Source: a virus
Length of the DNA stretch: 23,456 nucleotides
Strand: one strand, 5' to 3'
IMG/VR virus record: IMGVR_UViG_3300013129_000035
Coordinates: 1 to 23,456 of that record
The position numbers and the translations under genes are program-made. This document shows positions 2,912 to 19,232 of the stretch, one piece after another. The stretch's first letter is position 1. Each line of letters begins with the position of its first letter. Below the pieces are notes generated by a model that was not told where the DNA came from, did no database searches, and saw nothing but the letters and a program-made list of their open reading frames with translations.

Positions 2912-3143
2912 AGACAAAAAATTTATGAAAAATGAGTGGGGAACTGAATTTTTAGCATCAGAATACGGTTGGGAGCAAAAAGTTGAGGAGCAAAAAATGC
3001 TTCGTGAGATTGCAAGTGATGATTTAACGCCAAAAAAACATGATTTTCACATTCAAAACGAAATTCATGAAAAAATTCGCAATGATAATGATTATGATGA
3101 CTGGGAATATGGAACAGAACCTATTCCATTATCCGAATTTTAG
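2892..3143 (+). CDS. Acidic/charged hypothetical protein (83 aa)
   Basis: The 83-aa product begins MTKQVDKDKKFMKNEWGTEF and overlaps the previous gene by 20 nt in another frame, with a good AGGAG site. It is highly charged, with helical-looking stretches (ASEYGWEQKVEEQKMLREI, about 22-40; a possible short coiled coil) and an acidic end (DNDYDDWEYGTEPIPLSEF). There is no membrane segment. I do not recognise a domain. The overlap implies co-translation with the 231-aa protein, so the two may act together. Its TAG stop is followed within 3 nt by the late promoter of the baseplate operon. Confidence 0.75.
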   Translation: MTKQVDKDKKFMKNEWGTEFLASEYGWEQKVEEQKMLREIASDDLTPKKHDFHIQNEIHEKIRNDNDYDDWEYGTEPIPLSEF

Positions 3144-3145
3144 TG

Positions 3146-3153
3146 AATAAATA
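3146..3153 (+). promoter_or_regulatory. T4-type late promoter AATAAATA before gp25
   Basis: AATAAATA sits in the 30-nt gap between the 83-aa gene and gp25, 20 nt before the ATG at 3174. The T4 late promoter is TATAAATA, and cyanomyovirus late genes are reported to use the looser NATAAATA form, read with phage late sigma factor gp55. Position and sequence make it the probable driver of gp25, gp6 and the giant gene. Confidence 0.72.
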
Positions 3154-3173
3154 AGATAGATTTATAATATTCA

Positions 3174-3575
3174 ATGCCAGTACAGCGCATTAGCAAGTCA
3201 TTTAAGGACATTAGTTTGTCCTTTCAGGTTAGTCCACTAACCTATGACTTGATTGCGATTAAAAATGAAAATGCAATTTCTAGATCTATTCGAAATCTTG
3301 TTCTTACCAATAGAGGAGAACGTTTTTTCAACAATACTCTGGGTTCTAGAGTTAATTCTTTGTTGTTTGAATCTTTGGATGATATTACTGCATCATCAGT
3401 AAGAGATGAAATTGAAAATGTAATTAATAATTATGAACCCAGAGTTGAGTTAATATCCGTTGATGCGGTTCCTAATTATGATGATGGCGAACTTAATGTA
3501 ACAATTCAATATTATATTATTGGAATTGATGCACAACCACAACAATTATCATTCGCATTACAGCCAACACGATAA
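3174..3575 (+). CDS. gp25: Baseplate wedge subunit gp25 (133 aa)
   Basis: The product is a member of the GPW/gp25 family, part of the T4 baseplate wedge close to the central hub and needed for sheath attachment. Length 133 aa compares with 132 for T4 gp25. Family signs are the segment NLVLTNRGERFF (41-52), the following small/polar turn NNTLGSRV, and the EPR motif (88-90, NYEPRVEL) in the alpha-beta core; the C-terminal half is beta-rich. The start follows the late promoter; there is no clear Shine-Dalgarno sequence. The stop TAA overlaps the ATG of gp6 (TAATG), so the two are translationally coupled. In T4, genes 25 and 6 are not adjacent; this gp25-gp6 order is typical of cyanomyoviruses. 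Confidence 0.95.
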   Translation: MPVQRISKSFKDISLSFQVSPLTYDLIAIKNENAISRSIRNLVLTNRGERFFNNTLGSRVNSLLFESLDDITASSVRDEIENVINNYEPRVELISVDAVPNYDDGELNVTIQYYIIGIDAQPQQLSFALQPTR

Positions 3576-5479
3576 TGCCATTAGTTAATTTTGCAAATCT
3601 AGATTTCGATCAGATAAAGACATCAATTAAAAATTATCTTAGATCAAATTCAAACTTCACTGATTATGACTTTGAAGGATCTAATTTATCTACAATTGTT
3701 GATGTGCTTGCCTATAATACGTATATAACCTCGTATAATGCCAATATGGTATCGAATGAGGTTTTTATTGATAGTGCAACTTTAAGAGAAAATGTCGTTT
3801 CTCTTGCAAGAAATATTGGATATGTTCCAAAATCTAAAACCTCATCTAAAGCAAGTATATCGTTTTTTGTAGATTTTTCTGCATATACAACGAAACCAGA
3901 GGCAATTACATTAAATAAAGGAGTTGTGTGCTCAACAACAACATTTGGAACAGAAAACTATACTTTTTCAATATTAGATGACATTACAGTTGCAGTAATT
4001 AATAATATAGCTACTTTTGATGAAATTACTGTTTATGAGGGAATTTATATTGCATCAAATTTTACTGTAGATTCTTATAATCCTAACCAAAGGTTCATAC
4101 TTCCAAACTCGAACATTGATACAACTACAATTAGGGTATTGGTTAAACCATCACAATTTAACGATATAAAAAGAAAGTATATACAAGCAAATAGTTTATT
4201 TAATATTAACTCAGACTCACCAGTATTTTGGGTACAAGAAATAGAAGATGAAAGATATGAATTAATTTTTGGTGATGGAGTTTTTGGAAAAAAATTAGAA
4301 TCACCCAATTACATCGAAGTAACTTATCTTGTTTCGAACGGTGAATCGGCAAATAATATATCTCAATTCAATTTTAGTGGAAAATTAACTTCTTCTAGAG
4401 AATCTATTCTAATAAATTCTGGAATATCTTTAATAACCACCAATCAGTCTTCATATGACGGAAGTGAAATTGAACAAATAGAGTCTATTAAAAAGTATGC
4501 TCCTAGAATTTATTCATCGCAAAATAGAGCAGTTACCGCAAGAGATTATGAATCAATAGTTCCTACAATATACCCAGAAACAGAATCAATTTCTGTTTTT
4601 GGTGGAGAAGAATTAAGTCCTCCGCAATTTGGAAAAGTTTTTATTAGCATTAAACCAACTAATGGTTCTTATCTTTCAAATCTAATCAAAGATAACATTA
4701 AAAAAGATCTTAGGCAATACTCTATTGCGGGAATAGTTCCGGAAATTATTGACTTAAAATATTTGTATATCGAACCAAATATAAATGCATATTACAACAC
4801 AAATTTAGCAGCATCTGCAAATTCAATATCAAATATTGTTTCAACAAATGTAGAAAGATATGCAAATTCATCAGAATTGAATAAATTTGGGGCAAGGTTT
4901 AAATATAGTAAATTTTTAAAAATAATTGATGACAGTAGTAATGCAATAACGTCAAATATTACGACAGTTATTATGAGAAGAGATTTGCGACCAGTGTTAA
5001 ATAGTTTTACCGAATATGAAATTTGTTTTGGAAATAGATTTCATATTAAAAATGAAAATGGATATAATATTAAATCCTCTGGGTTTAATGTAAGTGGAAT
5101 TGTTGGTACGGTGTATCTTTCCGATTTACCAAATGCCGACAAAGAAACTGGATCTATATTTTTGTTTAGATTAAATTCACCAACACAACCAGAGATTGTT
5201 AAAAAATCTGTAGGAATAATTGATTATATTAAAGGAGAAATTAAACTTTCTCCCATTAATATAACAAATGCAGTATTAAATATAGGTTTTCCTATCATTG
5301 AGATTTCGGTATCTCCGTATTCTAATGACATTATAGGACTTCAAGATTTGTATTTACAATTGGATATGACTAAAACAACTATTAATACTAAACCAGACAA
5401 TATATCTTCTGGAAACGATGTTACTGGTACAAATTATCTAGTTACATCAAGTTATGCAAACGGAATTTTAGTAAGATAA
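3575..5479 (+). CDS. gp6: Baseplate wedge subunit gp6 (634 aa)
   Basis: The product is a homologue of T4 gp6 (660 aa), the wedge protein that forms the inner ring joining baseplate wedges. It has a baseplate J-like core. The N-terminal region (NFANLDFDQIKTSIKNYLRS) carries a helical dimerisation-type segment followed by DYDFEGSNLSTIVDVLAYNT, which is typical of the family. A central YELIFGDGVFG motif (228 on; GDG 233-235) is followed by the strand YIEVTYLVSNG. A later segment, KKYAPRIYSSQNRAVTARDY (about 307-326), is the best conserved stretch of gp6/J-like proteins. The C-terminal about 150 residues are less conserved. It starts coupled to gp25 and is followed after 14 nt by the giant gene. 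It is strongly AT-biased at third positions. No truncation. Confidence 0.95.
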   Translation: MPLVNFANLDFDQIKTSIKNYLRSNSNFTDYDFEGSNLSTIVDVLAYNTYITSYNANMVSNEVFIDSATLRENVVSLARNIGYVPKSKTSSKASISFFVDFSAYTTKPEAITLNKGVVCSTTTFGTENYTFSILDDITVAVINNIATFDEITVYEGIYIASNFTVDSYNPNQRFILPNSNIDTTTIRVLVKPSQFNDIKRKYIQANSLFNINSDSPVFWVQEIEDERYELIFGDGVFGKKLESPNYIEVTYLVSNGESANNISQFNFSGKLTSSRESILINSGISLITTNQSSYDGSEIEQIESIKKYAPRIYSSQNRAVTARDYESIVPTIYPETESISVFGGEELSPPQFGKVFISIKPTNGSYLSNLIKDNIKKDLRQYSIAGIVPEIIDLKYLYIEPNINAYYNTNLAASANSISNIVSTNVERYANSSELNKFGARFKYSKFLKIIDDSSNAITSNITTVIMRRDLRPVLNSFTEYEICFGNRFHIKNENGYNIKSSGFNVSGIVGTVYLSDLPNADKETGSIFLFRLNSPTQPEIVKKSVGIIDYIKGEIKLSPINITNAVLNIGFPIIEISVSPYSNDIIGLQDLYLQLDMTKTTINTKPDNISSGNDVTGTNYLVTSSYANGILVR

Positions 5480-5493
5480 TTAAAAAAAGAAAC

Positions 5494-8400
5494 ATGATAT
5501 CAACAGATCTGCAAAGAGTACAAATTCAAGATATAGTTGAAAGTCAACTTCCATCCTTCATAAGAGAAGACTTTCCACTTATAACTGATTTTTTAAAACA
5601 GTATTATATATCTCAAGAATATCTTGGAGCTTCTGTTGATTTAATACAAAATATTGATCAATATTTAAAATTGGAATCTTTATCGGATAATTCTCAATAC
5701 ACAGAATTATCTGGAGATATTTCTTTTTCGGATACGGATATTAATACTACTTTTAATTTAGATCAACAAATTTTTGGCACGTATGGATTTCCTGAAAAAT
5801 ATGGATTAATTCAAATAGATGATGAAATCATTCTATATACAGAAAAAACTAATACATCTTTTACTGGATGTATCAGGGGATTTAGTGGAGTCACTTCATA
5901 TACTAATTTAAACTCAACAGATTCTCTAACATTTTCATCTTCAGAAGTTTCGGAACACACTTCTGGCACCAAAATTATTAATTTGAGTGCTTTATTATTT
6001 GAAGAATTTTTGAAAAAAATAAAATATCAATTTGCTCCGGGATTTGATAGCAGAAAATTAGATAATGATGTAAATGAAAGACTTTTTATATCGAGGACAA
6101 AAGATTTTTATCAATCAAAGGGAACAGATGAATCTTTTAAAATTCTTTTTTCTGCTTTATATGGAGAAAAAGTTGCTGTCATAAAACCAAAAGATTATCT
6201 TTTTAGACCATCTGATGCCGAGTATAGAGTAACAAAAGATATTGTTGTTCAATCGATAAATGGAAATCCACTAGATTTACTAAATCAAACTTTATTTCAA
6301 GATGCTTATGAAAATTACAATATACAAAAAGCTTATGCATCAATTACGAATGTTGAAAAAATTTCATATTCATCTCAAGAATATTATAAACTAAGTTTAG
6401 ATTTTGATTATTCAAAAGATATCACTATTGATGGTAGTGTTTATGGTGAATTTTCAGTACATCCAATTACAAAAGTAATAAATTCAGTTTCTATTGGATC
6501 TTCAATTATTGATGTCGATTCTACAATAGGATTTCCTAATTCTGGGGAATTGATTGCAGAATCTTCTTCTGGTAACATAGATATACTCACATACGGATCA
6601 AAAAGCAATAATCAATTTTTTGACGTTGGATTAGCTAGCACAACAGAAAAAGGTATAACTTTTAATATAAACTCTAAATCAAATATCAGACTAAACGTTA
6701 GTGCTTATGGATACGTTGGATTTGGAACAACATCAAAAGTAGAAGTTAGAATTGGATCTGTACTTTCTGATTTAATAATAAACGATGATACTTATTATTT
6801 TTCAAAAAATGATACTGCTCTCATTAAATCGTTGGGAATAACAACAAGTGGTCCAAAAACAAACAGTTGGATTTATAATATTGCAACAAAATTTGATATT
6901 AAATCAATTGCATTAATTGATACTTCAGACTTTACTTATAATATTGAGACTTATGTTCCAAATAATTTTAATATTGGGGACATTCTTTTAATTACAAACA
7001 ATGCATCTGAAATTAAAACATGTTCTGTAACAAACATAATAAATGAGTTTATATTTTCTATTAGTGGTCAGGGATTAATCAATGGAAATATATCAACAAT
7101 TGAAAGAAAAATTTTAAAACCTAAAGTAAGTTCTTCTTTATCAAATTATTCATATATTGAAAATTATATTTCAAATGTACAAAATACTTATGCAAAATTT
7201 AATCAAGATGTTTTAGTTTCTTCCTCATCCTTACCCAATTATTACAATCAACCATTAAATTTTTACGATAAAAAAATAATATTAAACGGACAATACAGTG
7301 GAGAAATTTTTACTATTGATGATATAAATGATCATGGATATTATACTGGTGATGCAATTTATTACAATTCATTTACATTTCAAGATACAATCGATGGAAC
7401 TTTAGTATCTACTACTAGTAAATTTCAAAATTTAACTCCAGGAATATATTATGTAAAGAGAGTAAATCAAAATCAATTTAAAATTGCAAGTAGTCCTGCA
7501 AATCTTTATAATAATAATTTTATTTCAGTATCAGGAATAGTTACTTCAAATACTTTTGAATATCTTGATTTTAATCAAAAAACTTTAAACCATCAAAATT
7601 TGTTGAGAGAAATTAAATCCCCAAATAATAAAAGTGATAATTACGTAACAAGTCCAGGAAAAACAGGAATATTAATTAATGGAGTAGAAATATTAAATTA
7701 TAAATCCGAAGATGTAATTTATTATGGATCTTTACAAAAAATTGAAGTAACATCTGGTGGAAATAATTATGATATAGTAAATCCTCCAATTTTAACAATA
7801 ACAGATGATAATGGTAGTGGAGCAATTGCTAATTGTTCGGTAAAGGGCAATTTAAAAAGAATTGATATAATTGATCCTGGTTTTGATTACCTATCAAAAC
7901 CAATAGTTACGATCACCGGCGGAAATGGAAGTGGAGCAAAAGCATTAGTAAATACAACTTTTATAGATCATTCGGCACTATTTAATTCAACAGCACAATC
8001 GGCAAATGTTGGATTGTCTAATAATGTTATAGGTTTTTCAACATATCACAAATTTAGAAATGCGGAAAAAATAATTTATAAAACCGATGGTCAAAATGGT
8101 ATATCTGGATTAGTTACGAATTCGCAATATTATGTTAGAACTATAGATGCCGTCACTATTCAATTGTTTAAAAATGAAGCAGATGCTATATCTGGAGTAA
8201 ACACAATTTCATTAAATTCTTTTGGAGATGGTGTACATAGACTGCAATCTTTCAATAAAAAGCAAATAATTTCAAATATTGTAATTGAAAATTCTGGTTC
8301 AAATTACGAAAATAAGAAAAGGATAGTTGGTAATATCGGAGTTAATACTGCATCTAATCAGATAAACATAAAAAATCATCAATACAATTCTGGGGATATT

Positions 8401-11400
8401 ATTCAATACACATTTAATCAAATTCCAATAATAGGATTGAGTTCAAATACATCATATATTGTTACAAAAGTTGATGAAGATCATTTCAAACTTTCTAATG
8501 TGGGTTTAGGATCGACCGCAAAACTTTTCTACTACGAAACAAAGCAATATATTAGTTTTAAATTCTCTGGGTCTGGAACGCATATTTTTAATTATGAACC
8601 AATTTCTGTAACTATCGAAGGCAAAATTGGAGTTACAACTTTTTCTGATCAAAATTTTAATGCAATAGTTCAACCAATTTTTAGAGGGTCAGTAGAATCA
8701 ACACAAATTATCGATGGTGGCATAGGATATGGGTCGTCTGAAATTTTAAATTACAATAGACAACCATTACTCGATCTTTATAGTGGATCGAGTGCAGAAG
8801 TTTTGCCAATCGTAAATAATGGTCGCATTGTAGAAGTATTAATTACAAATGGGGGAAGTGGATATAATTCTCCGCCAGAGCTAGCAATTAATGGATCTGG
8901 AAAATATGGTAAACTGACTCCTGTTATTAAAGATGGAAAAATAACAAAAGTAATAATTGAAAATCCGGGAATCGGATATGAAAATAAAATTCGAGTTGAC
9001 ATAATTCAAAGTGGAAATGGTGCAAAGTTTAATGTAAATATTCAAAAATGGACAATAAATTTATTTCAAAAGTATTTGAATAGTATTTCAGATGATGATG
9101 GAATCTTAAGCAAATCCCTAAATGAAAACTTTGGTATACAATATACTCATTTGTATGCACCAAGAAAACTAAGAGAATCCATATATTCGAAAAATCAAGA
9201 TAATGAAATTAAGTATGGTATATTTGATTTACAAAAAGTCAATGGTGAAGAAATAAAGTCTTCATATCATTCTCCAATTATAGGATGGTCCTATGATGGA
9301 AATCCAATATATGGCCCATATGGATTTTCTTCAAAAACTGGAGGAACAATTAGAGAAATGACCTCTGGATATCAGTTGGTAACCAAGTCAAATAGACCAC
9401 CAATTTCAAATTTTCCGCAAGGATTTTTTGTTGAAGATTATGAATTTACAAATTCTGGAGATTTGGATGAACATAATGGACGGTTTTGTGTAACCCCAGA
9501 TTATCCAAATGGAGTTTATGCATATTTTGCAACCATTAATCCGGGAAACGTTGAAAGTATTTTGCCATTCAAAAATTACAAAATACCAGTATTTCCATAT
9601 TTAATCGGTAATACTTTTAAATCTAAACCAAACGAATTCAATTTCAATCCAGATTCAAATCAAATTACATATGATTTGAACAAAGATGAATGGTTTAGAA
9701 ATACAACACCATATAATTTGACAGAAAATGCTGCCTATTATGAGTATCTTTTTCAACCAAATAAACTAAAATCACAAAAAGTTAATATTAATGAAGTTTC
9801 TACAGGTAGTATAAAATCGGTTGGAATTTTAACTGGAGGATTTGATTATAAAATAAATGATCAGATAATATTTAATCCTGAAGAAAATAATATTCAAAAA
9901 GCAAAAGCAAAGGTTTCTAGAATTCTAGGAAAACCTGTTACAAATATTAGTGTTGCATCAACAACTATATCCCAATTGGAGTTAATTCCATCCGATTCGA
10001 ATGGAACATATGTTGCTTTTTCAACTTATCCACATAATTTATCAAATAATGATTTAATTTCATTATCCGGATTTAATACATCAATTAATTATTTGAATAA
10101 TAATTTTAATATTGGTGTTAAAACTGAATCTTTTATTTTAAAATCTGGTGTAGGAACTGATGGAATAACTGGAGTAGTTACATATTTTAGTATATCGGGA
10201 TTATTTGAAAATAATATTTTTTCGTTGAGAGAAAATGATGTTCTTACAGCAGATCAAGAAATAGTTAAAGTTATTAATGTAGATGTCAAAAATTCCAGAA
10301 TTCGAGTTGTTAGATCTCAAAATAATACTATATCAGCAGCCCACACATCTTCAACTTTATTATATGAAAATTCTAGAAAATTTACTTTTAATTCAATACC
10401 AGAAAATAATGTAGAGTTTGAACTCAATAGAGAAATTTATTTTGACCCAAAAGAATCTCTCGGACTTGGATCTACGACCGGAGTTGGAATTGGAACAACC
10501 ATATTCTTCTCCAATCCAGGAGCAGGAATAACTCAATTTTTTATTCCTACACAATCAATATACTTACCAAATCATAAATTAAACACTGGAGATATTTTAA
10601 ATTATCAAACAAACGGCGGAACTTCAATTAATGTTTCAATGGGAGGAACTTCTCAATTCGATTTACCAAGTTCCTCAATTGTTTATGTTGGTAAAATTTC
10701 TGATGATTTAATTGGAATATCAACATATAGTGTTGGAATTGGATCTACTGGAACTTTTGTCGGAATTGCAAGCACCACTTCAAATTTTGGACTACTATTT
10801 TTTACTGGAATAGGAACGGGAGTCTATCATAGCTTTAAGACAATAAAGAAAAATATAATTTCAGCAGAAGTATCTAAAAATATTGTTACTGTTTCAACAT
10901 CTTCAACTCATGGATTGAGTTTAAGTGACAAAGTATTTGTTGAAGTCAATCCATTTGTTACTACAAATATTATAGTAAAATATGATGATTATAACCGAAG
11001 AATGGTATTTAATCCAAAACCATTCACTGCAGCAGATGTGGACGTTGAAGAAAACTCAATAACAATTGCTAATCATGGATTTTTAACAGGAGATAAAGTA
11101 ATTCATACCTCAACGTTTTCTTCTTTTGGATTAAATAATGAAGAAATTTATTATGTAATTAAAATTTCTAAAGATAAAATTAAATTATGCTCAAGTAAAT
11201 ATCAAACGACACAATTTACTCCTGAAGTTGTTGGTATAACATCTGCATCTTTTGGAACATTATCTACAATCAATCCAAAAATATATACATATAAAAATAA
11301 TAGTTTAAAATTTGATCTTTCAGATGCATCACTATCATCTCAAAATGGATCTACTTTATATTCTGCATTTGATTTAAATCTTTATACCGATAAAAATTTT

Positions 11401-14400
11401 AAAAATATTTTTAATTCTTCAGAAAAAAATACTTTTTTTGAAGTTTCAAAGATAGGACAAATTGGAATTACTAGCAATGCAGCATTATTGTTAAAGGTAA
11501 CAGAAAATTTGTCAAGACAACTTTATTATAATTTTACTCCAACCAATACTAATTTTATTTCGCAAAATAAAAAAGAAATTTACAATGACGAAGAGGTAGA
11601 AAGTAATAATCAAATTGAAATTATTAATAGTGCTTATTCTGGAGAATTTGACATTACTGGAATTGGAACCACATCAACATTTACTTATAATTTATCATTA
11701 GTTCCAGAATCAAATTCCTATGATATAAATTCGGCAAATATTAAATATTCGACAACATCACTTTCTGCATCTGGATCCATTGAAAAAATCTTTGTAAATT
11801 ATGGAGGAAGTTTATATAAAAATATTTCAGGTGTTTCAACAATAGCATCAAATTTTGGATATGGTGCAATTTTAGAATCATCTAGTGATAATATAGGAAA
11901 AATATTATCTACTCAGATAGAAGATATTGGATTTGATTTTCCTTCAGATAAAACTTTAAGACCAGTAGTAAATCTTCCAGAAATCTTAATAGTCGATTCT
12001 TTATCATCATTTGATGAAATTGGAATTAGTTCAGCAGGAAAAAATTATACGATACCATCAAATTTGGTTGTAATTGATGGATTTACTGGAAAACAAGTTG
12101 AAGATGTGGATTTAAAATACAATATTGGTGATACTAAAGTTAAAATTTTAAAAAATACTTTTGGTATATACAATGTCCCACCAAAAATTATTCCAGTCAG
12201 CAATCCGAATGGGGTAAAAATTAATAATATAAGTTACAATTCGACAACTAAAAAAGTAACAGTTGGATTAAATACTGGATTTAGTGATATTTCTCCATTT
12301 TCCGTAGGGGATAAAGTTTTGATTGAGAATATTAGTGTAGGAGTTGGTTCTACTGGCATAGGATATAATTCTTCAAATTATGGATATTCCTTGTTTACTT
12401 TATCGGAAGTTTATATTCCTCTAGGTGGAAGTGTAGGAATAGTTACATATAGCCTTGATGGATACATAGATGAAGGTTCAATTCCTGGCAATTTTGATTC
12501 TGTCAATTCATCTGGAAGAATAATAGCAGAAAAGGATTTTCCAGTTTTTGATATTAAATTGAAAAAAAATAATTTTATATTAGGAGAAACTGTAACATCA
12601 CAAAATAATATTGGTGAAGTGGAAAGTTGGAATAATGAAATCGGTCTTTTAAAGATTTCAACAACAAAAGATTTTAGCACAGGAAATATAATAAAAGGTC
12701 AAACATCCAAAACTCAAGGATTAATCAGAAAAAAAATAGATTTTAATGCAGAATTAAAAACATCAGCATCATCAATAGTTAAAAATGGATGGCACAAAGA
12801 AACTGGATTTTTAAATTTTAATACGGAGAGAATTGCTGATAATAACTATTATCAAAATTTTTCATATTCCTTAAAATCAAAAGTTCCATTTGAAACTTGG
12901 AAGGATTCTGTCAGTTCATTAAATCATTCTGTCGGATTCTTAAAGTTTAGTGATTTGATCATTGAATCAGAAGACTTAAATTATAACGGAGTTTATTCTG
13001 ATTATTTTGGATCAACTATTGATGTAATTACTGATATATCAAATGAAATTGATTTAGATTGTTATAATAATTTTGATTTAGTCACAGAAAATTCTTTAGA
13101 TATTAATGGTGCAAAAATTATATCTAATGAAATTTATTTTGGTTCTAAAGTTTTAACTGACTATTTTGAGTCTTTTGGAAACAGAGTTTTAGTAATTGAT
13201 GATATAAGCACACAATTTAATAGCACACCAAGACCCACTAAATTTTCTGTTGTTGATACCTTTGACATATCGCATAAATCTAAAAAATATGTAACTTATA
13301 TTAGAGATAAAAGGTTTACTGATGAAAGACAAGTAATGTTGGTGAGCCTTTTACAAGATGGGTCTTTTGGATTTTTGAATCAATATGGAAGAGTTGAGAG
13401 TGTTTTAGATTTGGGTAGTTTTGATTTTAATATTTCGGGGTCTGAAGGTCAACTTTTATTTTATCCCACAAAATATTCAATTAACAATTATAATGTAAGT
13501 TTTGCTAGTTTTGATATTATTAGCCTTTCTACATCTGGAATAGGATCTACTAGTCTTGGCGATATTGTTGATATCAGAACAACTAAAACAGTAGTTCCAT
13601 TGAACACTACGACAAGCATTGTTTCTATCGCATCATCATATAGAACTTCAAAAATTCTTATTGAATTAATGGGAAATAATGGTGAGTTTGAATTTGATGA
13701 AATTAATATGATTCATAATGGAACTAATGTAGACATTTTGGAATATGGTCAACTTACAAATACAACACTGAATAGATTTGGAACTTCAGGATTGGGAACT
13801 TACAATGCATATATTTCTGGAGGAAATACAATTTTAGATTTTATTCCAAATTCTGGAATAGCAGTTACCACAAATACATTAAGAATTTCTATATCAGATA
13901 CTTCATCAACAGGAATAGGCACACAATATCTTGGATTTGATCTTGAAAATATTGCATTTATAGATTCTTCATATACAGCAATTTCATCATCACCTACACC
14001 TACGGAAAATATTATTGCAAAGTACAGTAATGTAGTGCCAAATGACCATAGTTGTTCATATTTTATAGTTAGTGTTGAGGATACTACGAATAATCAATAT
14101 GAAATGTCGGAGGTCATTTTGTTAAATGATGGCAGTAATAGCAATGGATCGAAAACATATATTACACAGTACGGAAATCTTTCGACTAATTCTGGATTGG
14201 GGACTGTTGGTGCGGCAATTTCTACTACACACACAAATTTATATTTTACACCAATTCCAAACGCAAATGTAGAAGTTCGTGTTTTTCAAACAAGTCTTCA
14301 GTTGGTTGATTTGGAAGATAATCAATCTTCTTATATTGATTTAAACAATGCAACAATTAGTGCAGGGTTTGGTTTTTATCAAGGAACCGAAATTGATGTT

Positions 14401-17400
14401 AGAAGAGCATTTGATTTAACTCACAAACAAAGACCAATATTTTTAAGAAATTTTGATGGAGGAAACTCTTCAATCGTAAGTGTTTCTGAAGATACCATTA
14501 CTCTCCCAGAACACTTCTTTGTAACTGGGGAAGAAGTTTTATATTCACATGATCCAAATTATGCAAGTGCGATAGGAATAGCATCAACTAGTTTTGTTGG
14601 TGTTGGAACAACAAATATTTTACCATCTTCTGTTTATGCAATTAGAGTAAATGATCAAAAAATAAAACTTGCAAGATCTGCAGAGGATGCTTTAAATTCA
14701 ATCCCAATTTCATTGGATATAACAAACGTAGGAACGGGAACATATCATACATTTACTGCAAAAAATCAAAATACAAAATGTTTAATTGCCATCGATAACT
14801 ATATTCAATCCCCGATCGTTTCTACTTCAGTCACTACTGGTATTACCACTCACATTGGATTAATTGACGACATTATTAAGGTTTCAGGAATAACATCATT
14901 TTTTGGTGGAGACTTAATAAAAATTAATGATGAAATTATGTTAATTAATACTGTTGGGTTTGGAAGCACAAATTCAATACTCGTTACTCGACCATGGATG
15001 GGGACTGGATTGTCAACTCACTCACAATATTCTAAAGTGACAAAGGTAATGGGAGATTATAACATTACCGACAATACTATTAATTTTATTACAGCACCTC
15101 AAGGACCAATTCCAATTGGATCGTCAACTAATCCTCCAAGTGAGAGAGATTGGACAGGAATTACTACATTTTCTAAGTTTCAAGGAAGATCTTTCTTAAG
15201 ATCTGCACCGGAAAATAGTAACGAAGAAACATATGCAAAAAATTATGTTTTTGACGATATTTCTCAAGGATTTGATGCTACGCAAAAAATATTTACTCTA
15301 CAATCAGAAAATCAAAATATTTCTGGTTTTTCGACCAACAATTCAGTAATACTCATCAATGGGATATTTCAAGGACCAACAGGACAATTAACAATACCTC
15401 AAGATTATTCTTTATCCGAAAGTTCTGGAATTACAAGCATAACATTTACCGGAACTGCGACTTCTGTTGCATATGATCCAAATAACGCAAGTATACCAAA
15501 AGGTGGAATAATTATATCGGTTGGTTCCACAAGAGGGTTTGGGTATCAACCATTGGTATCTGCAGGAGGAACGGCAATAGTTTCAATTGCAGGTACAATT
15601 TCCTCCATCAGTATTGGTAATAGTGGATCCGGATATAGATCAGGTATTCAAACTGTTAGAGTTGGTGTTACAACATCTTCCTTAGAAACTCCAGATATTT
15701 TTTATGTTGGAATTGCATCAGTTGTTGATGGATATATTGTGGGGGTTGCAATAACAAATTCCGGAATTGGATATACGATTTCAAATCCACCGTATGTTAT
15801 TTTTGATGCACCACTTTCATACTCCAATATTTCTCTAATTTATAGTTCAGAATCTCCTTCTGGATTTGGTACTGAGGCAACAATTGATATTGTAGTTGGG
15901 CAAGGATCTAGTGTTATTGATTTTGAAATTAAGAATTTTGGATATAATTACGGACAATCTCAAATTTTAACAGTTGGGATTGGAGGATCTGTTGGAATTC
16001 CAACCGATACAACTAAAACTTTTGAAGAATTTCAAATTAGTATCGACAAAACTGCAACGGATGAATTTGCAGGTTGGCACTTTGGTCAACTTGAAGTGCT
16101 TGACAAAATTGAAAATCAGTTTAATGGAAAAAGAAAATCTTTTACTATTTCATTAAATTCTTCTCCAGTTACAATTAGATCAGCAAAAGGATCAAACATC
16201 GATGTTCAAACAACTCTTCTTGTCTTTTTAAATGATGTTCTTCAAGTTCCTGGAGAAGGATATACTTTCACTGGAGGGAGTGTGATAACTTTTGCAGAAC
16301 CACCAAAAGGGTCTTCTAATGATGGTTCTGTAATTGGAGACAAATGTAAAATTTTATTTTATAAAGGAAGTGGTGATGTTGATGTGGTGTTCCGTGATGT
16401 TTTAGAGACAGTTAAAGTTGGAGACAATTTAACAATTAAAGACCAAGAAAAACGAATAGTAACTGAAATTATTTCATCGGATGCCGTTGAAACAAATTCA
16501 TATAATGGTTTTGGTATTGATTCAAATCCAGCAAATCAAAGAATTGTTGAGTGGTGCAAACAAAAATCAGATAAAATAATTAATGGTAAAGTTGTAAGCA
16601 AAAGTAGAATTTTAAATGAAGCACTAATAAATCCTTCGACATATGTTATTCAATCTGTTGGAATTGGATCTACCATAGTATATGTTGAAAGTGTAAAATC
16701 TTTCTTCGATTCGGTAAAAGAAAACCAAACAACACCAAATAAACAAAAAATTATTTTAGTATCTCAAGATACAATCGTGGGTGCTTCTGCAACTGCAGTT
16801 GTTTCTGCTGCAGGAACTATCTCTTCTATAATTATCACAGATGGTGGAGTTGGGTATAGTACAAATCCAATCATAAGTATTGGAGATCCTGTTGGATACG
16901 GAGTTTCTACACCAAAAACAACCTATATCAATGGACAATCAATACCAGTAGGATTAGGTACAACTGCTTCAGCAACTTCAATTATTTCAGTTGGAGGAAC
17001 CGTATCATCAATAGTAATCACAAATCCAGGTGCAGGATATACTAGTTCTAATCCACCACAAATTTTAATCGAAGTTCCTCATGTTGTCTATGAACTTAAT
17101 ACTTCAAATTCATATGAGGGTGACTTTGGAGTGATTGTTGGTGTTTCTACTACATCAGTGGGAGTTGCCTCTACTGCATTTGTTTTTGACTTATTCATTC
17201 CTATTAATTCTTATTTAAGAGACACTACTATTGTAAGCAGTGCAGCAACTATTAGTGGTATTCAAACTGGATATTATTTCGTTGCCAAAAATACAAACGT
17301 TGGAAGTGGTGTTACATCTCTATATCAAGATAATACCACTCTTGGAATTGCAACCCAATTCTTAGACATTGTATATAAAGTTGCTTCAGTTTCAACAGCT

Positions 17401-17649
17401 ACAACAGCAGTTGCGGGTGTCGGTATTACATACGTAAGAAGAGTAATAGTAAGTATAAGTGATTTTGGAGATACTTCTGGAATTGGAGCAACAGAATTTT
17501 ATGGTGAGTATTCTTGGGGAAGAATTAATTTAGGTTCTAGACCTAATGCCAAACCATTCCCCGCATATACATTAAATGGTTCTTCTGGAATATCAACTTC
17601 TTCTTCAATTACTAGAGTTCAACCATTAAAATATCTGAATTATATTTAA
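5494..17649 (+). CDS. Giant (4051 aa) virion structural protein in the gp7 slot, with YHYH domain
   Basis: One uninterrupted frame of 12,156 nt. It lies between gp6 and gp8, exactly where T4 has gp7 (1032 aa). Residues about 10-230 resemble the C-terminal part of T4 gp7 as I recall it: LPSFIREDFPLITDFLKQYY (19-38), and ISRTKDFYQSKGTDESFKIL (199-218) leading to LFSALYGEKV. Residues from Y1258 to about 1375 are a YHYH-type domain (YHSPIIGWSYDGNPIYGPYG and GRFCVTPDYPNGVYAYF). The rest is built from repeated beta-rich modules: at least 14 GGxGY repeats, six GDxxxY...FKL modules, three tandem modules at 2596-2936, three E-I/V-x-x-x...RG/GT...H modules and two LNxxxQxPxxxY modules. Numerous G[IVLF]G[ST]T turns and only about ten Cys are present. 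There is no signal peptide. Likely a very large baseplate/fibre protein: N-terminus in the wedge, the rest extended outward. It has a weak AAAGAAA ribosome site and the most AT-rich codons in the window. Confidence 0.9.
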   Translation: MISTDLQRVQIQDIVESQLPSFIREDFPLITDFLKQYYISQEYLGASVDLIQNIDQYLKLESLSDNSQYTELSGDISFSDTDINTTFNLDQQIFGTYGFPEKYGLIQIDDEIILYTEKTNTSFTGCIRGFSGVTSYTNLNSTDSLTFSSSEVSEHTSGTKIINLSALLFEEFLKKIKYQFAPGFDSRKLDNDVNERLFISRTKDFYQSKGTDESFKILFSALYGEKVAVIKPKDYLFRPSDAEYRVTKDIVVQSINGNPLDLLNQTLFQDAYENYNIQKAYASITNVEKISYSSQEYYKLSLDFDYSKDITIDGSVYGEFSVHPITKVINSVSIGSSIIDVDSTIGFPNSGELIAESSSGNIDILTYGSKSNNQFFDVGLASTTEKGITFNINSKSNIRLNVSAYGYVGFGTTSKVEVRIGSVLSDLIINDDTYYFSKNDTALIKSLGITTSGPKTNSWIYNIATKFDIKSIALIDTSDFTYNIETYVPNNFNIGDILLITNNASEIKTCSVTNIINEFIFSISGQGLINGNISTIERKILKPKVSSSLSNYSYIENYISNVQNTYAKFNQDVLVSSSSLPNYYNQPLNFYDKKIILNGQYSGEIFTIDDINDHGYYTGDAIYYNSFTFQDTIDGTLVSTTSKFQNLTPGIYYVKRVNQNQFKIASSPANLYNNNFISVSGIVTSNTFEYLDFNQKTLNHQNLLREIKSPNNKSDNYVTSPGKTGILINGVEILNYKSEDVIYYGSLQKIEVTSGGNNYDIVNPPILTITDDNGSGAIANCSVKGNLKRIDIIDPGFDYLSKPIVTITGGNGSGAKALVNTTFIDHSALFNSTAQSANVGLSNNVIGFSTYHKFRNAEKIIYKTDGQNGISGLVTNSQYYVRTIDAVTIQLFKNEADAISGVNTISLNSFGDGVHRLQSFNKKQIISNIVIENSGSNYENKKRIVGNIGVNTASNQINIKNHQYNSGDIIQYTFNQIPIIGLSSNTSYIVTKVDEDHFKLSNVGLGSTAKLFYYETKQYISFKFSGSGTHIFNYEPISVTIEGKIGVTTFSDQNFNAIVQPIFRGSVESTQIIDGGIGYGSSEILNYNRQPLLDLYSGSSAEVLPIVNNGRIVEVLITNGGSGYNSPPELAINGSGKYGKLTPVIKDGKITKVIIENPGIGYENKIRVDIIQSGNGAKFNVNIQKWTINLFQKYLNSISDDDGILSKSLNENFGIQYTHLYAPRKLRESIYSKNQDNEIKYGIFDLQKVNGEEIKSSYHSPIIGWSYDGNPIYGPYGFSSKTGGTIREMTSGYQLVTKSNRPPISNFPQGFFVEDYEFTNSGDLDEHNGRFCVTPDYPNGVYAYFATINPGNVESILPFKNYKIPVFPYLIGNTFKSKPNEFNFNPDSNQITYDLNKDEWFRNTTPYNLTENAAYYEYLFQPNKLKSQKVNINEVSTGSIKSVGILTGGFDYKINDQIIFNPEENNIQKAKAKVSRILGKPVTNISVASTTISQLELIPSDSNGTYVAFSTYPHNLSNNDLISLSGFNTSINYLNNNFNIGVKTESFILKSGVGTDGITGVVTYFSISGLFENNIFSLRENDVLTADQEIVKVINVDVKNSRIRVVRSQNNTISAAHTSSTLLYENSRKFTFNSIPENNVEFELNREIYFDPKESLGLGSTTGVGIGTTIFFSNPGAGITQFFIPTQSIYLPNHKLNTGDILNYQTNGGTSINVSMGGTSQFDLPSSSIVYVGKISDDLIGISTYSVGIGSTGTFVGIASTTSNFGLLFFTGIGTGVYHSFKTIKKNIISAEVSKNIVTVSTSSTHGLSLSDKVFVEVNPFVTTNIIVKYDDYNRRMVFNPKPFTAADVDVEENSITIANHGFLTGDKVIHTSTFSSFGLNNEEIYYVIKISKDKIKLCSSKYQTTQFTPEVVGITSASFGTLSTINPKIYTYKNNSLKFDLSDASLSSQNGSTLYSAFDLNLYTDKNFKNIFNSSEKNTFFEVSKIGQIGITSNAALLLKVTENLSRQLYYNFTPTNTNFISQNKKEIYNDEEVESNNQIEIINSAYSGEFDITGIGTTSTFTYNLSLVPESNSYDINSANIKYSTTSLSASGSIEKIFVNYGGSLYKNISGVSTIASNFGYGAILESSSDNIGKILSTQIEDIGFDFPSDKTLRPVVNLPEILIVDSLSSFDEIGISSAGKNYTIPSNLVVIDGFTGKQVEDVDLKYNIGDTKVKILKNTFGIYNVPPKIIPVSNPNGVKINNISYNSTTKKVTVGLNTGFSDISPFSVGDKVLIENISVGVGSTGIGYNSSNYGYSLFTLSEVYIPLGGSVGIVTYSLDGYIDEGSIPGNFDSVNSSGRIIAEKDFPVFDIKLKKNNFILGETVTSQNNIGEVESWNNEIGLLKISTTKDFSTGNIIKGQTSKTQGLIRKKIDFNAELKTSASSIVKNGWHKETGFLNFNTERIADNNYYQNFSYSLKSKVPFETWKDSVSSLNHSVGFLKFSDLIIESEDLNYNGVYSDYFGSTIDVITDISNEIDLDCYNNFDLVTENSLDINGAKIISNEIYFGSKVLTDYFESFGNRVLVIDDISTQFNSTPRPTKFSVVDTFDISHKSKKYVTYIRDKRFTDERQVMLVSLLQDGSFGFLNQYGRVESVLDLGSFDFNISGSEGQLLFYPTKYSINNYNVSFASFDIISLSTSGIGSTSLGDIVDIRTTKTVVPLNTTTSIVSIASSYRTSKILIELMGNNGEFEFDEINMIHNGTNVDILEYGQLTNTTLNRFGTSGLGTYNAYISGGNTILDFIPNSGIAVTTNTLRISISDTSSTGIGTQYLGFDLENIAFIDSSYTAISSSPTPTENIIAKYSNVVPNDHSCSYFIVSVEDTTNNQYEMSEVILLNDGSNSNGSKTYITQYGNLSTNSGLGTVGAAISTTHTNLYFTPIPNANVEVRVFQTSLQLVDLEDNQSSYIDLNNATISAGFGFYQGTEIDVRRAFDLTHKQRPIFLRNFDGGNSSIVSVSEDTITLPEHFFVTGEEVLYSHDPNYASAIGIASTSFVGVGTTNILPSSVYAIRVNDQKIKLARSAEDALNSIPISLDITNVGTGTYHTFTAKNQNTKCLIAIDNYIQSPIVSTSVTTGITTHIGLIDDIIKVSGITSFFGGDLIKINDEIMLINTVGFGSTNSILVTRPWMGTGLSTHSQYSKVTKVMGDYNITDNTINFITAPQGPIPIGSSTNPPSERDWTGITTFSKFQGRSFLRSAPENSNEETYAKNYVFDDISQGFDATQKIFTLQSENQNISGFSTNNSVILINGIFQGPTGQLTIPQDYSLSESSGITSITFTGTATSVAYDPNNASIPKGGIIISVGSTRGFGYQPLVSAGGTAIVSIAGTISSISIGNSGSGYRSGIQTVRVGVTTSSLETPDIFYVGIASVVDGYIVGVAITNSGIGYTISNPPYVIFDAPLSYSNISLIYSSESPSGFGTEATIDIVVGQGSSVIDFEIKNFGYNYGQSQILTVGIGGSVGIPTDTTKTFEEFQISIDKTATDEFAGWHFGQLEVLDKIENQFNGKRKSFTISLNSSPVTIRSAKGSNIDVQTTLLVFLNDVLQVPGEGYTFTGGSVITFAEPPKGSSNDGSVIGDKCKILFYKGSGDVDVVFRDVLETVKVGDNLTIKDQEKRIVTEIISSDAVETNSYNGFGIDSNPANQRIVEWCKQKSDKIINGKVVSKSRILNEALINPSTYVIQSVGIGSTIVYVESVKSFFDSVKENQTTPNKQKIILVSQDTIVGASATAVVSAAGTISSIIITDGGVGYSTNPIISIGDPVGYGVSTPKTTYINGQSIPVGLGTTASATSIISVGGTVSSIVITNPGAGYTSSNPPQILIEVPHVVYELNTSNSYEGDFGVIVGVSTTSVGVASTAFVFDLFIPINSYLRDTTIVSSAATISGIQTGYYFVAKNTNVGSGVTSLYQDNTTLGIATQFLDIVYKVASVSTATTAVAGVGITYVRRVIVSISDFGDTSGIGATEFYGEYSWGRINLGSRPNAKPFPAYTLNGSSGISTSSSITRVQPLKYLNYI

Positions 17650-17672: not shown

Positions 17673-19232
17673 ATGTCAGCAATTATAACTGATCAACTTC
17701 GTATTTTAAATGCAAAACAATTTGTTACTAGTGTAGCATTAACTACTAGTTCTTACTACACATTTGTGGGGCTTCCAAATGCAACACAAGTTAGTTCTAC
17801 TTGGGATACTACTCCACCAGACCCTAGAGATAATTTTGATGAAGAAAATAATTATTGGGATACGATAATTGCCCTCAAAAAAATAAATTCTTCAGACGTA
17901 AAACAAGTTGTAAGAAAAATAACTTGGCAATCTGGAATTACTTATGATATGTATAGGCATGACATAAGTGGAAGTGTTGGAAAGCAATCTAAACCATCAA
18001 ATGCGACTAGTTTATATGATGCCAATTATTATATTGTAAACTCTGATTATAAAGTGTATATTTGCCTTCAAAATGGAACTGATCCAGAAAATCTTTCAGG
18101 AAAAGCATCTTTAGATGAACCAACTTTTACTGATTTAGAACCAAGAGAAGCTGGAACAAGTGGTGATGGATATGTTTGGAAATATCTTTATACTATTAAA
18201 CCAAGTGATATTATAAAATTTGATTCAACGAATTTTATGCCAGTTCCATCCAATTGGGAAACTAATGTTGATGATGCTGCAGTAAGAAATAATGCAAAAT
18301 CAAGTGGACAATTAAAAATAGTAACAATTTTAAATAGGGGGGTTGGATTAGGAACAGCTAATAGAACATACACAAGAGTTCCAATTAAAGGTGATGGAAC
18401 AGGTGCTGAAGCAACAGTAGTAATTAATAATAATTCAAAAGTAGAATCAGTAACAATTTCTTCTGGTGGAAATGGATATACTTTTGGAACTTTGGATTTG
18501 GTTGGAGGTAATGTTCCAACAGGGACTATATCTCCAATTTTCAATGTAATTATTCCCCCACAGGGAGGACATGGTTCTGACATTTATCGAGAACTTGGTG
18601 CCAGAAATGCATTAATATATTCTAGAATTGAAAATGATACTGAAAATCCAGATTTTATTACCGGAAATCAAATTGCAAGAATAGGGATTGTACAGAACCC
18701 TAAAGCATATAACGCAGTACAAAATTTAGATTTAGATAAAGCCAGTGCAACTTATGCATTAAAATTAACAGGAGTTGGATATAGTTCAGCAACTTTTACT
18801 CCAGATTCTTTTATTACTCAAACCATTGGTATTGGATCAACTGCTGTAGGAAAAGTTGTTTCCTATGATCAAGTTACTGGAGTTCTAAAATATTGGCAAG
18901 ACAGATCAACGTCTGGATTTAATACTGATGGAACACAAAACATTTCACCAGTTTATGGATTTCAATTAAATAGATTTACTTCAACTCTAAATGGTGGGGG
19001 ATCAATAAGCATTATGGGTGGATCTTCGACATTATCAATACAAACCTCTTTTACTGGTGTTTCTACAGCAATAAATAGTAGAACATATTACTTAGGTCAA
19101 TCGTTTATTCAAGGTGTATCTCAACCAGAAGTTGAAAAATACTCAGGAAACATCATTTATATAGACAATAGACCTTCTATAACAAGATCTATTAACCAAA
19201 AAGAAGATATTAAAGTCATTTTGCAGTTCTAA
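17673..19232 (+). CDS. gp8: Baseplate wedge subunit gp8 (519 aa)
   Basis: The product is a homologue of T4 gp8, the wedge protein that binds gp7 and helps anchor gp10. The recognisable block is GDGYVWKYLYTIKPSD (from G164), which matches the GDGYVWEYLF region of T4 gp8, followed by the PVPSNW stretch. Upstream, WDTTPPDPRDNFDEENNYWD and TYDMYRHD fit the gp8 N-terminal domain. At 519 aa it is much longer than T4 gp8 (334 aa). Part of the excess is a glycine-rich insert at about 240-280 containing VESVTISSGGNGYTFG (257 on), the same repeat type that fills the giant neighbour. The ATG at 17673 is preferred because the ATG 7 nt upstream is immediately followed by TAA. No Shine-Dalgarno sequence, but its own late promoter. 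The stop is 6 nt before the next gene. Confidence 0.93.
   Translation: MSAIITDQLRILNAKQFVTSVALTTSSYYTFVGLPNATQVSSTWDTTPPDPRDNFDEENNYWDTIIALKKINSSDVKQVVRKITWQSGITYDMYRHDISGSVGKQSKPSNATSLYDANYYIVNSDYKVYICLQNGTDPENLSGKASLDEPTFTDLEPREAGTSGDGYVWKYLYTIKPSDIIKFDSTNFMPVPSNWETNVDDAAVRNNAKSSGQLKIVTILNRGVGLGTANRTYTRVPIKGDGTGAEATVVINNNSKVESVTISSGGNGYTFGTLDLVGGNVPTGTISPIFNVIIPPQGGHGSDIYRELGARNALIYSRIENDTENPDFITGNQIARIGIVQNPKAYNAVQNLDLDKASATYALKLTGVGYSSATFTPDSFITQTIGIGSTAVGKVVSYDQVTGVLKYWQDRSTSGFNTDGTQNISPVYGFQLNRFTSTLNGGGSISIMGGSSTLSIQTSFTGVSTAINSRTYYLGQSFIQGVSQPEVEKYSGNIIYIDNRPSITRSINQKEDIKVILQF

Follow-up and report, generated by a model that had tools for sequence, protein, structure and literature searches.

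Sequence comparisons relate the N-terminus of a giant cyanophage baseplate protein to the core of T4 gp7

T4-like cyanophages rank among the most common viruses of the ocean, and the first domains of the T4-type baseplate proteins gp6 and gp7 are related. No published structure of the outer baseplate of a T4-like cyanophage was found in the literature searched. In T4, gp7 is a protein of 1032 aa encoded between gp6 and gp8 in the record that we examined (PDB 5hx2, 5iv5). Its counterparts in Vibrio phage XM1 (gp17, 242 aa) and Anabaena phage A-1(L) (gp32), known here from papers (PMC10457771, PMC10966104), are small proteins with N-terminal core helices, and their fibres or spikes are attached either inside the core or behind it. 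The XM1 protein binds tail spikes via a loop inside the core and via its C-terminus (PMC10457771), and the gp7-like part of contractile injection systems has been described as a hotspot of evolutionary re-engineering (PMC8894135). For marine phages, T4 gp7 has been reported absent from pelagi- and cyanomyophages, apparently substituted by VrlC (PMC7029224); a further study lists gp7, as very divergent, among genes shared by non-cyanophages (PMC3037559).

Here we analysed a window of 23,456 bp, an IMG/VR fragment, in which a baseplate operon has the order gp25-gp6-giant-gp8, with a matching slot in T4 and relatives. The giant frame starts with ATG, runs through 4051 codons without an internal stop and takes up 51.8% of the window (Table 1). 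The first-pass annotation had placed it, by position and length, in the slot of T4 gp7, and the ORF together with PHROG and Pfam matches confirmed this. Since the protein aligns over its full length with orthologues from other phages (phrog_2885), the long frame is a gene, and a chance or artefactual ORF is ruled out. Two genes lie upstream, at 1022-1789 and 2216-2911; one matches phrog_1574 (unknown) and gives weak glycosyltransferase matches, the other matches phrog_3704 (named ferredoxin), and comparable small genes precede gp25 in relatives. The gene after gp8 encodes another very large protein, VrlC/DUF4815-like and ~2500 aa long in relatives, and in cyanophage S-CREM2 the ORF after gp8 (ORF124) contributed the most peptides (450) to a published virion proteome (PMC10665884).

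Table 1. Genes of the baseplate operon in the window and segments of the giant protein. Nucleotide positions are those of the window; where further copies are listed in brackets, the positions refer to the first copy.
Feature	Residues	Positions	Strand	Basis
gp25, sheath initiator / baseplate wedge (133 aa)		3174..3575	+	phrog_261, E=2e-53; PF04965, E=1e-14
gp6 baseplate wedge (634 aa)		3575..5479	+	phrog_219, E=3e-200; Gp6-like Pfam domains
Giant gp7 (4051 aa)		5494..17649	+	phrog_2885 'baseplate wedge subunit', 3649 bits
gp7 core, N-terminal helical hairpin (proposed gp6 core-bundle helices)	8-57	5515..5664	+	conserved block in alignment
R3 beta module inside gp7 core	70-126	5701..5871	+	R3 HMM
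gp7 core, second part (FYxSKGTxxSxxILFxxLYGE motif)	163-330	5980..6483	+	BLASTP, hhalign, PDB and reverse searches
R3 copy (others 3115-3155, 3716-3740)	326-378	6469..6627	+	R3 HMM
Stretch with proposed first half of YHYH in two pieces (~565-590, ~715-741), an R1 copy lying between them	565-741	7186..7716	+	weak, collinear alignment with a cellular YHYH protein
R1 copy	611-682	7324..7539	+	profile self-comparison, HMM
R1, other copies	841-915, 950-1030, 1684-1764, 1849-1922, 2995-3083
R2 (GGSGY-type) copy	745-820	7726..7953	+	profile self-comparison, HMM
R2, other copies	1019-1108, 1110-1186, 1430-1475, 2094-2160, 2174-2245
R2, further copies	3341-3395, 3413-3502, 3749-3804, 3801-3857
YHYH domain, C-terminal half	1205-1380	9106..9633	+	PF14240, E=4e-25
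R4 tandem modules	2641-2876	13414..14121	+	least conserved stretch; missing in S-CAM9
R5 module (another 3252-3309)	3543-3640	16120..16413	+	HMM
gp8 baseplate wedge (519 aa)		17673..19232	+	phrog_438, E=2e-159; PF09215, E=3e-14; R2-type repeats at residues 173-270
VrlC/DUF4815-like virion protein, truncated at contig end		19239..23456	+	phrog_358; PF16075, E=3e-56

Sequence comparison shows that the first ~330 residues of the giant share homology with the T4 gp7 core (about residues 650-820 in T4). BLASTP aligned residues 192-268 with T4 gp7 721-787 (E=8e-8, 38% identity). Using hhalign, a profile of twelve cyanophage N-termini matched three Straboviridae gp7 proteins with a probability of 95.5% (E=1.3e-8) and the single T4 gp7 sequence with 83%. 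Controls with T4 gp5, gp6, gp8, gp9, gp10, gp11, gp12, gp53 and wac all gave 0.4% or less, as did those from the window (its own gp6, gp8 and VrlC-like protein). When the N-terminal profile was searched against all PDB chains, the significant matches were to T4-type gp7 only (5hx2, 4e-5; 9f4a, 6e-5), and with a profile of residues 195-1394 T4-type gp7 alone was again significant. Conversely, a profile of T4-type gp7 found residues 172-230 of the window protein at 6e-8, and its positions 653-767 matched residues 5-116 of the gp7-slot protein of Stenotrophomonas phage BUCT608 at 4e-8, helical hairpin included. The BLASTP, hhalign, PDB profile and reverse-profile matches rule out that the giant is unrelated to gp7. 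We also considered a gp6 match in disguise and rejected it, the control hhalign comparisons to T4 gp6 and the window gp6 giving 0.1%.

These matches bear directly on the proposal that gp7 is absent from these phages, with VrlC in its place and the giant an unrelated insert. Apart from the published statement itself (PMC7029224), it could appeal to the N-terminal part of T4-type gp7 (T4 residues 1-640), for which hhalign against the whole giant returned no match (0.0%). Against it stand the homology of the giant's N-terminus to T4 gp7 and the reference pelagiphage HTVC008M, which has a gp7 core between gp6 and gp8, and we regard the proposal as extremely improbable. As a gp7 counterpart, VrlC was rejected directly: the VrlC-like protein compared with T4-type gp7 gave 0.2% in hhalign. 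On the strength of these alignments, the reported absence of gp7 is contradicted.

The giant and T4 gp7 thus share the slot between gp6 and gp8 and the core, but differ in what surrounds it. In T4, ~640 residues precede the core and are unmatched in the giant, whereas in the giant the core is N-terminal and is followed by ~3700 residues that are absent from T4. The T4-type N-terminal part is also missing before the core in BUCT608, in Methylophilales phage Melnitz-2 and in Pelagibacter phage HTVC008M, so it is a T4-side feature that does not define the wider gp7 family. Like the giant, these three proteins begin with the core and continue with R2 repeats, but they are shorter and R1, R4 and R5 were not detected in them. 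The cyanophage N-terminal HMM matches BUCT608 8-50 and HTVC008M 6-36, and the proposed gp6-binding hairpin is matched to T4 only via intermediates (BUCT608). BUCT608 has no counterpart of profile positions ~57-188, where the R3 beta module lies, which points to insertion of a module into the core. The spike-binding sites of the XM1 protein, a loop in the core and the C-terminus, correspond to the two sites that are enlarged in the giant, and this fits the description of the component as a re-engineering hotspot.

The first-pass annotation had left open whether gp7 was replaced or expanded in this operon; that the N-terminal ~330 residues are homologous to the T4 core shows expansion and not replacement. 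It had also named a second gp7 elsewhere in the genome as a finding that would count against its reading. In eight complete or near-complete relatives, a search with T4 gp7 gave a match in five, each at one site, the giant's N-terminus (T4 ~720-808), and none outside the giant in any of the eight. With the window's giant N-terminus as query there was one main site per relative genome; for the window's own genome, counts of gp7 refer to its 23,456 bp.

The expectation that a giant in the gp7 slot is unusual did not hold, as 3000-5200 aa is the norm in cyanophage relatives, many of them already annotated as gp7. A tblastn search with the N-terminal 400 residues retrieved 469 phage records, nearly all cyanophages, and many of these carry the names 'gp7' or 'baseplate wedge initiator'. 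Slot proteins range from those of BUCT608 (503 aa), OLIVR5 (881), Melnitz-2 (896), HTVC008M (1016), T4 (1032), V09 (1165) and AS-yj (1167), through that of S-CREM2 (1937 aa, from coordinates in PMC10665884), to those of S-PM2 (3048), S-CAM9 (3884), S-SRM01 (3895), the window (4051), Bellamy (4067), S-SM2 (4156), P-TIM68 (4307), S-CAM7 (4314), P-HM1 (4446), S-T4 (4749) and P-SSM2 (5195). The proteins of S-SM2, Bellamy, P-TIM68, P-SSM2 and S-CAM9 (phrog_2885, gp7 or 'baseplate wedge initiator'), at 3884-5195 aa similar in length to that of the window, share with it the slot, the N-terminal core, the module types and one YHYH domain. They are only 41-51% identical to the window's N-terminal 400 residues, and module copy numbers vary among them, S-CAM9 being without R4. 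We conclude that the window protein is a typical member of a known cyanophage (Kyanoviridae) giant gp7 family.

In two relatives the slot region is divided between chains: S-SSM7 has a 3007-aa protein and a second of 3001 aa, and S-PM2 a 3048-aa protein and a small one. This divisibility would suit a polyprotein that is cleaved so that only an N-terminal gp7 fragment enters the wedge. Most relatives, however, have single open frames of 3900-5200 aa, and the literature consulted reports no processing, so that we consider cleavage very unlikely. The two S-SSM7 proteins (4562-13585 and 14651-23656 of locus L004) flank a gp9-like gene, and the second is without profile positions 1-51, the proposed gp6-binding hairpin; it may lie outside the core bundle. 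Other variants were seen as well. The Syn2 giant gp7 (locus L092:15168-26765) has a second, partial core copy, with profile positions 114-408 at residues 616-906. In two metagenomic copies of the giant (L013:6655 and L073:14714) a stop interrupts the frame and the similarity resumes in a different one, which may reflect assembly error or real splitting.

The ~3700 residues behind the core consist largely of recurring beta modules and an embedded YHYH domain. HMMs and profile self-comparison distinguished about five recurring module types: six copies of R1, about ten of R2, four of R3 and two clear copies each of R4 and R5. BLASTP self-comparison of the giant did not reveal the repeats, and profiles were needed. 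Nothing useful was obtained from Pfam on single modules, from NCBIfam, from phmmer against the PDB with residues 1-1333 and the YHYH region, or from a C-terminal profile against the PDB. R2 also occurs behind the core in short gp7 proteins and inside gp8, so the combination of core and R2 is probably the older one. AlphaFold2 predicted almost entirely beta structure for residues 195-1394 (mean pLDDT 85.7, pTM 0.72) and 2990-4051 (mean pLDDT 75.3, pTM 0.54). Against the PDB, Foldseek found nothing convincing for either model (best E 7e-4, TM 0.05-0.07); in a viral library, the best match of the 195-1394 model was Bellamy gp7, with a TM of 0.84 by query length.

The YHYH domain is present once inside giant gp7 in each of ten cyanophages. 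In the window protein its C-terminal half scores 89.3 bits against a curated cut-off of 25 and covers profile positions 87-184 of 193. A cellular YHYH protein weakly and collinearly matches the two upstream pieces listed in Table 1, and among its shuffles listed none scored comparably. Splicing these pieces to the C-terminal half lengthened the Pfam match to positions 14-184, which two control splices did not do; the gain was small, from 93.8 to 96.2 bits (~2-3 bits). This pattern is suggestive of a YHYH domain split by inserted R1 and R2 modules, its first half displaced to ~565-590 and ~715-741. When genome contigs were scanned with the YHYH region, just two relatives emerged, and one of these is a phage-like contig from an archaeal MAG. 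A contig filed under a Woesearchaeota MAG encodes a cyanophage-like giant gp7 in an open frame of >2100 aa and is probably a misbinned phage.

A zinc site has been predicted in YHYH domains (PMC7824862), and one could imagine that the domain is an active metal-dependent hydrolase directed against the cell envelope at entry. By our own assignment of the site, made from one cellular homologue, D1268 is invariant in 58/58 relatives, as such an enzyme would lead one to expect, but H1259 is kept in 49 and H1219 in 34 of the 58, and the YHHH motif of the cellular homologue reads Y-T-H-L-Y in the giant. We consider a hydrolase very unlikely; since the proposed zinc-site histidines are only partly kept, the domain more likely serves a structural or binding function than a catalytic one. 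The sequence YAYF at 1342-1345 was considered as a degenerate YHYH motif and rejected, the cellular homologue having YAYF there too and its YHHH upstream.

We propose that the giant is probably an enlarged gp7, the organiser of the wedge, with an arm that would build up the periphery of the baseplate. As in T4, XM1 and A-1(L), the N-terminal core would link two copies of gp6 within the core bundle of the wedge, with one gp7 per wedge and six per baseplate. From each wedge an arm of ~3700 residues would run outward to form the periphery, where it would stand in for the N-terminal part of T4 gp7 and for gp9, gp10 and gp11, carry fibres or spikes, and relay the signal of surface contact to gp6 and gp25. 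In CsCl-purified virions of S-CREM2, a relative with a shorter slot protein, mass spectrometry detected this protein with 91 unique peptides and 27% coverage (PMC10665884). A Pfam search found the gp9/gp10 N-terminal domain in one of six complete cyanophages (a partial match in P-TIM68) and gp11 in none of the six, with T4 positive as control; divergence may account for these absences.

The extension may play the fibre or skirt role that the first-pass annotation had envisaged; its modules are beta-rich, but they gave no convincing match to a solved structure. In a stronger form, host contact would be made chiefly by the extension itself, acting as a long adhesin arm with receptor-binding variable modules and not as a platform for separate fibres. 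The low conservation of the tandem R4 modules and their absence from S-CAM9 point this way, as does the role in recognising the host with which YHYH domains of pelagimyophages have been linked (PMC7029224). Across genera, the extension is nevertheless for the most part conserved at full coverage, unlike typical receptor-binding tips, and Foldseek of the two AlphaFold2 models against the PDB found no receptor-binding fold; we hold the adhesin arm to be unlikely and favour the wedge organiser with a peripheral arm. More tentatively, a minimal gp7 might have been enlarged in cyanophages as a few module types were repeatedly inserted and duplicated within it and behind it, also inside the YHYH domain, with six giant chains forming an extra peripheral baseplate layer that replaces the N-terminal part of T4 gp7, gp9, gp10 and gp11.

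The same comparisons touch on existing annotation. In RefSeq the HTVC008M slot protein (NC_020484.1 33435-36485) bears the name 'head closure Hc2', apparently in error; it contains the gp7 core and R2 repeats. The Hc2 profile phrog_460 matches the giant and gp8 too, and the name is likely owed to R2 repeats that resemble this profile.

Collectively, our analysis reveals no new kind of system, and the protein type itself was already known; what is new is the case for its kinship with gp7 and the map of its repeated modules, which can guide the cutting of the giant into constructs. By establishing that gp7 is present, which part of it is conserved and which part is added, these results correct both the statement that cyanophages lack gp7 and use VrlC instead and the apparently wrong RefSeq name of the pelagiphage protein.
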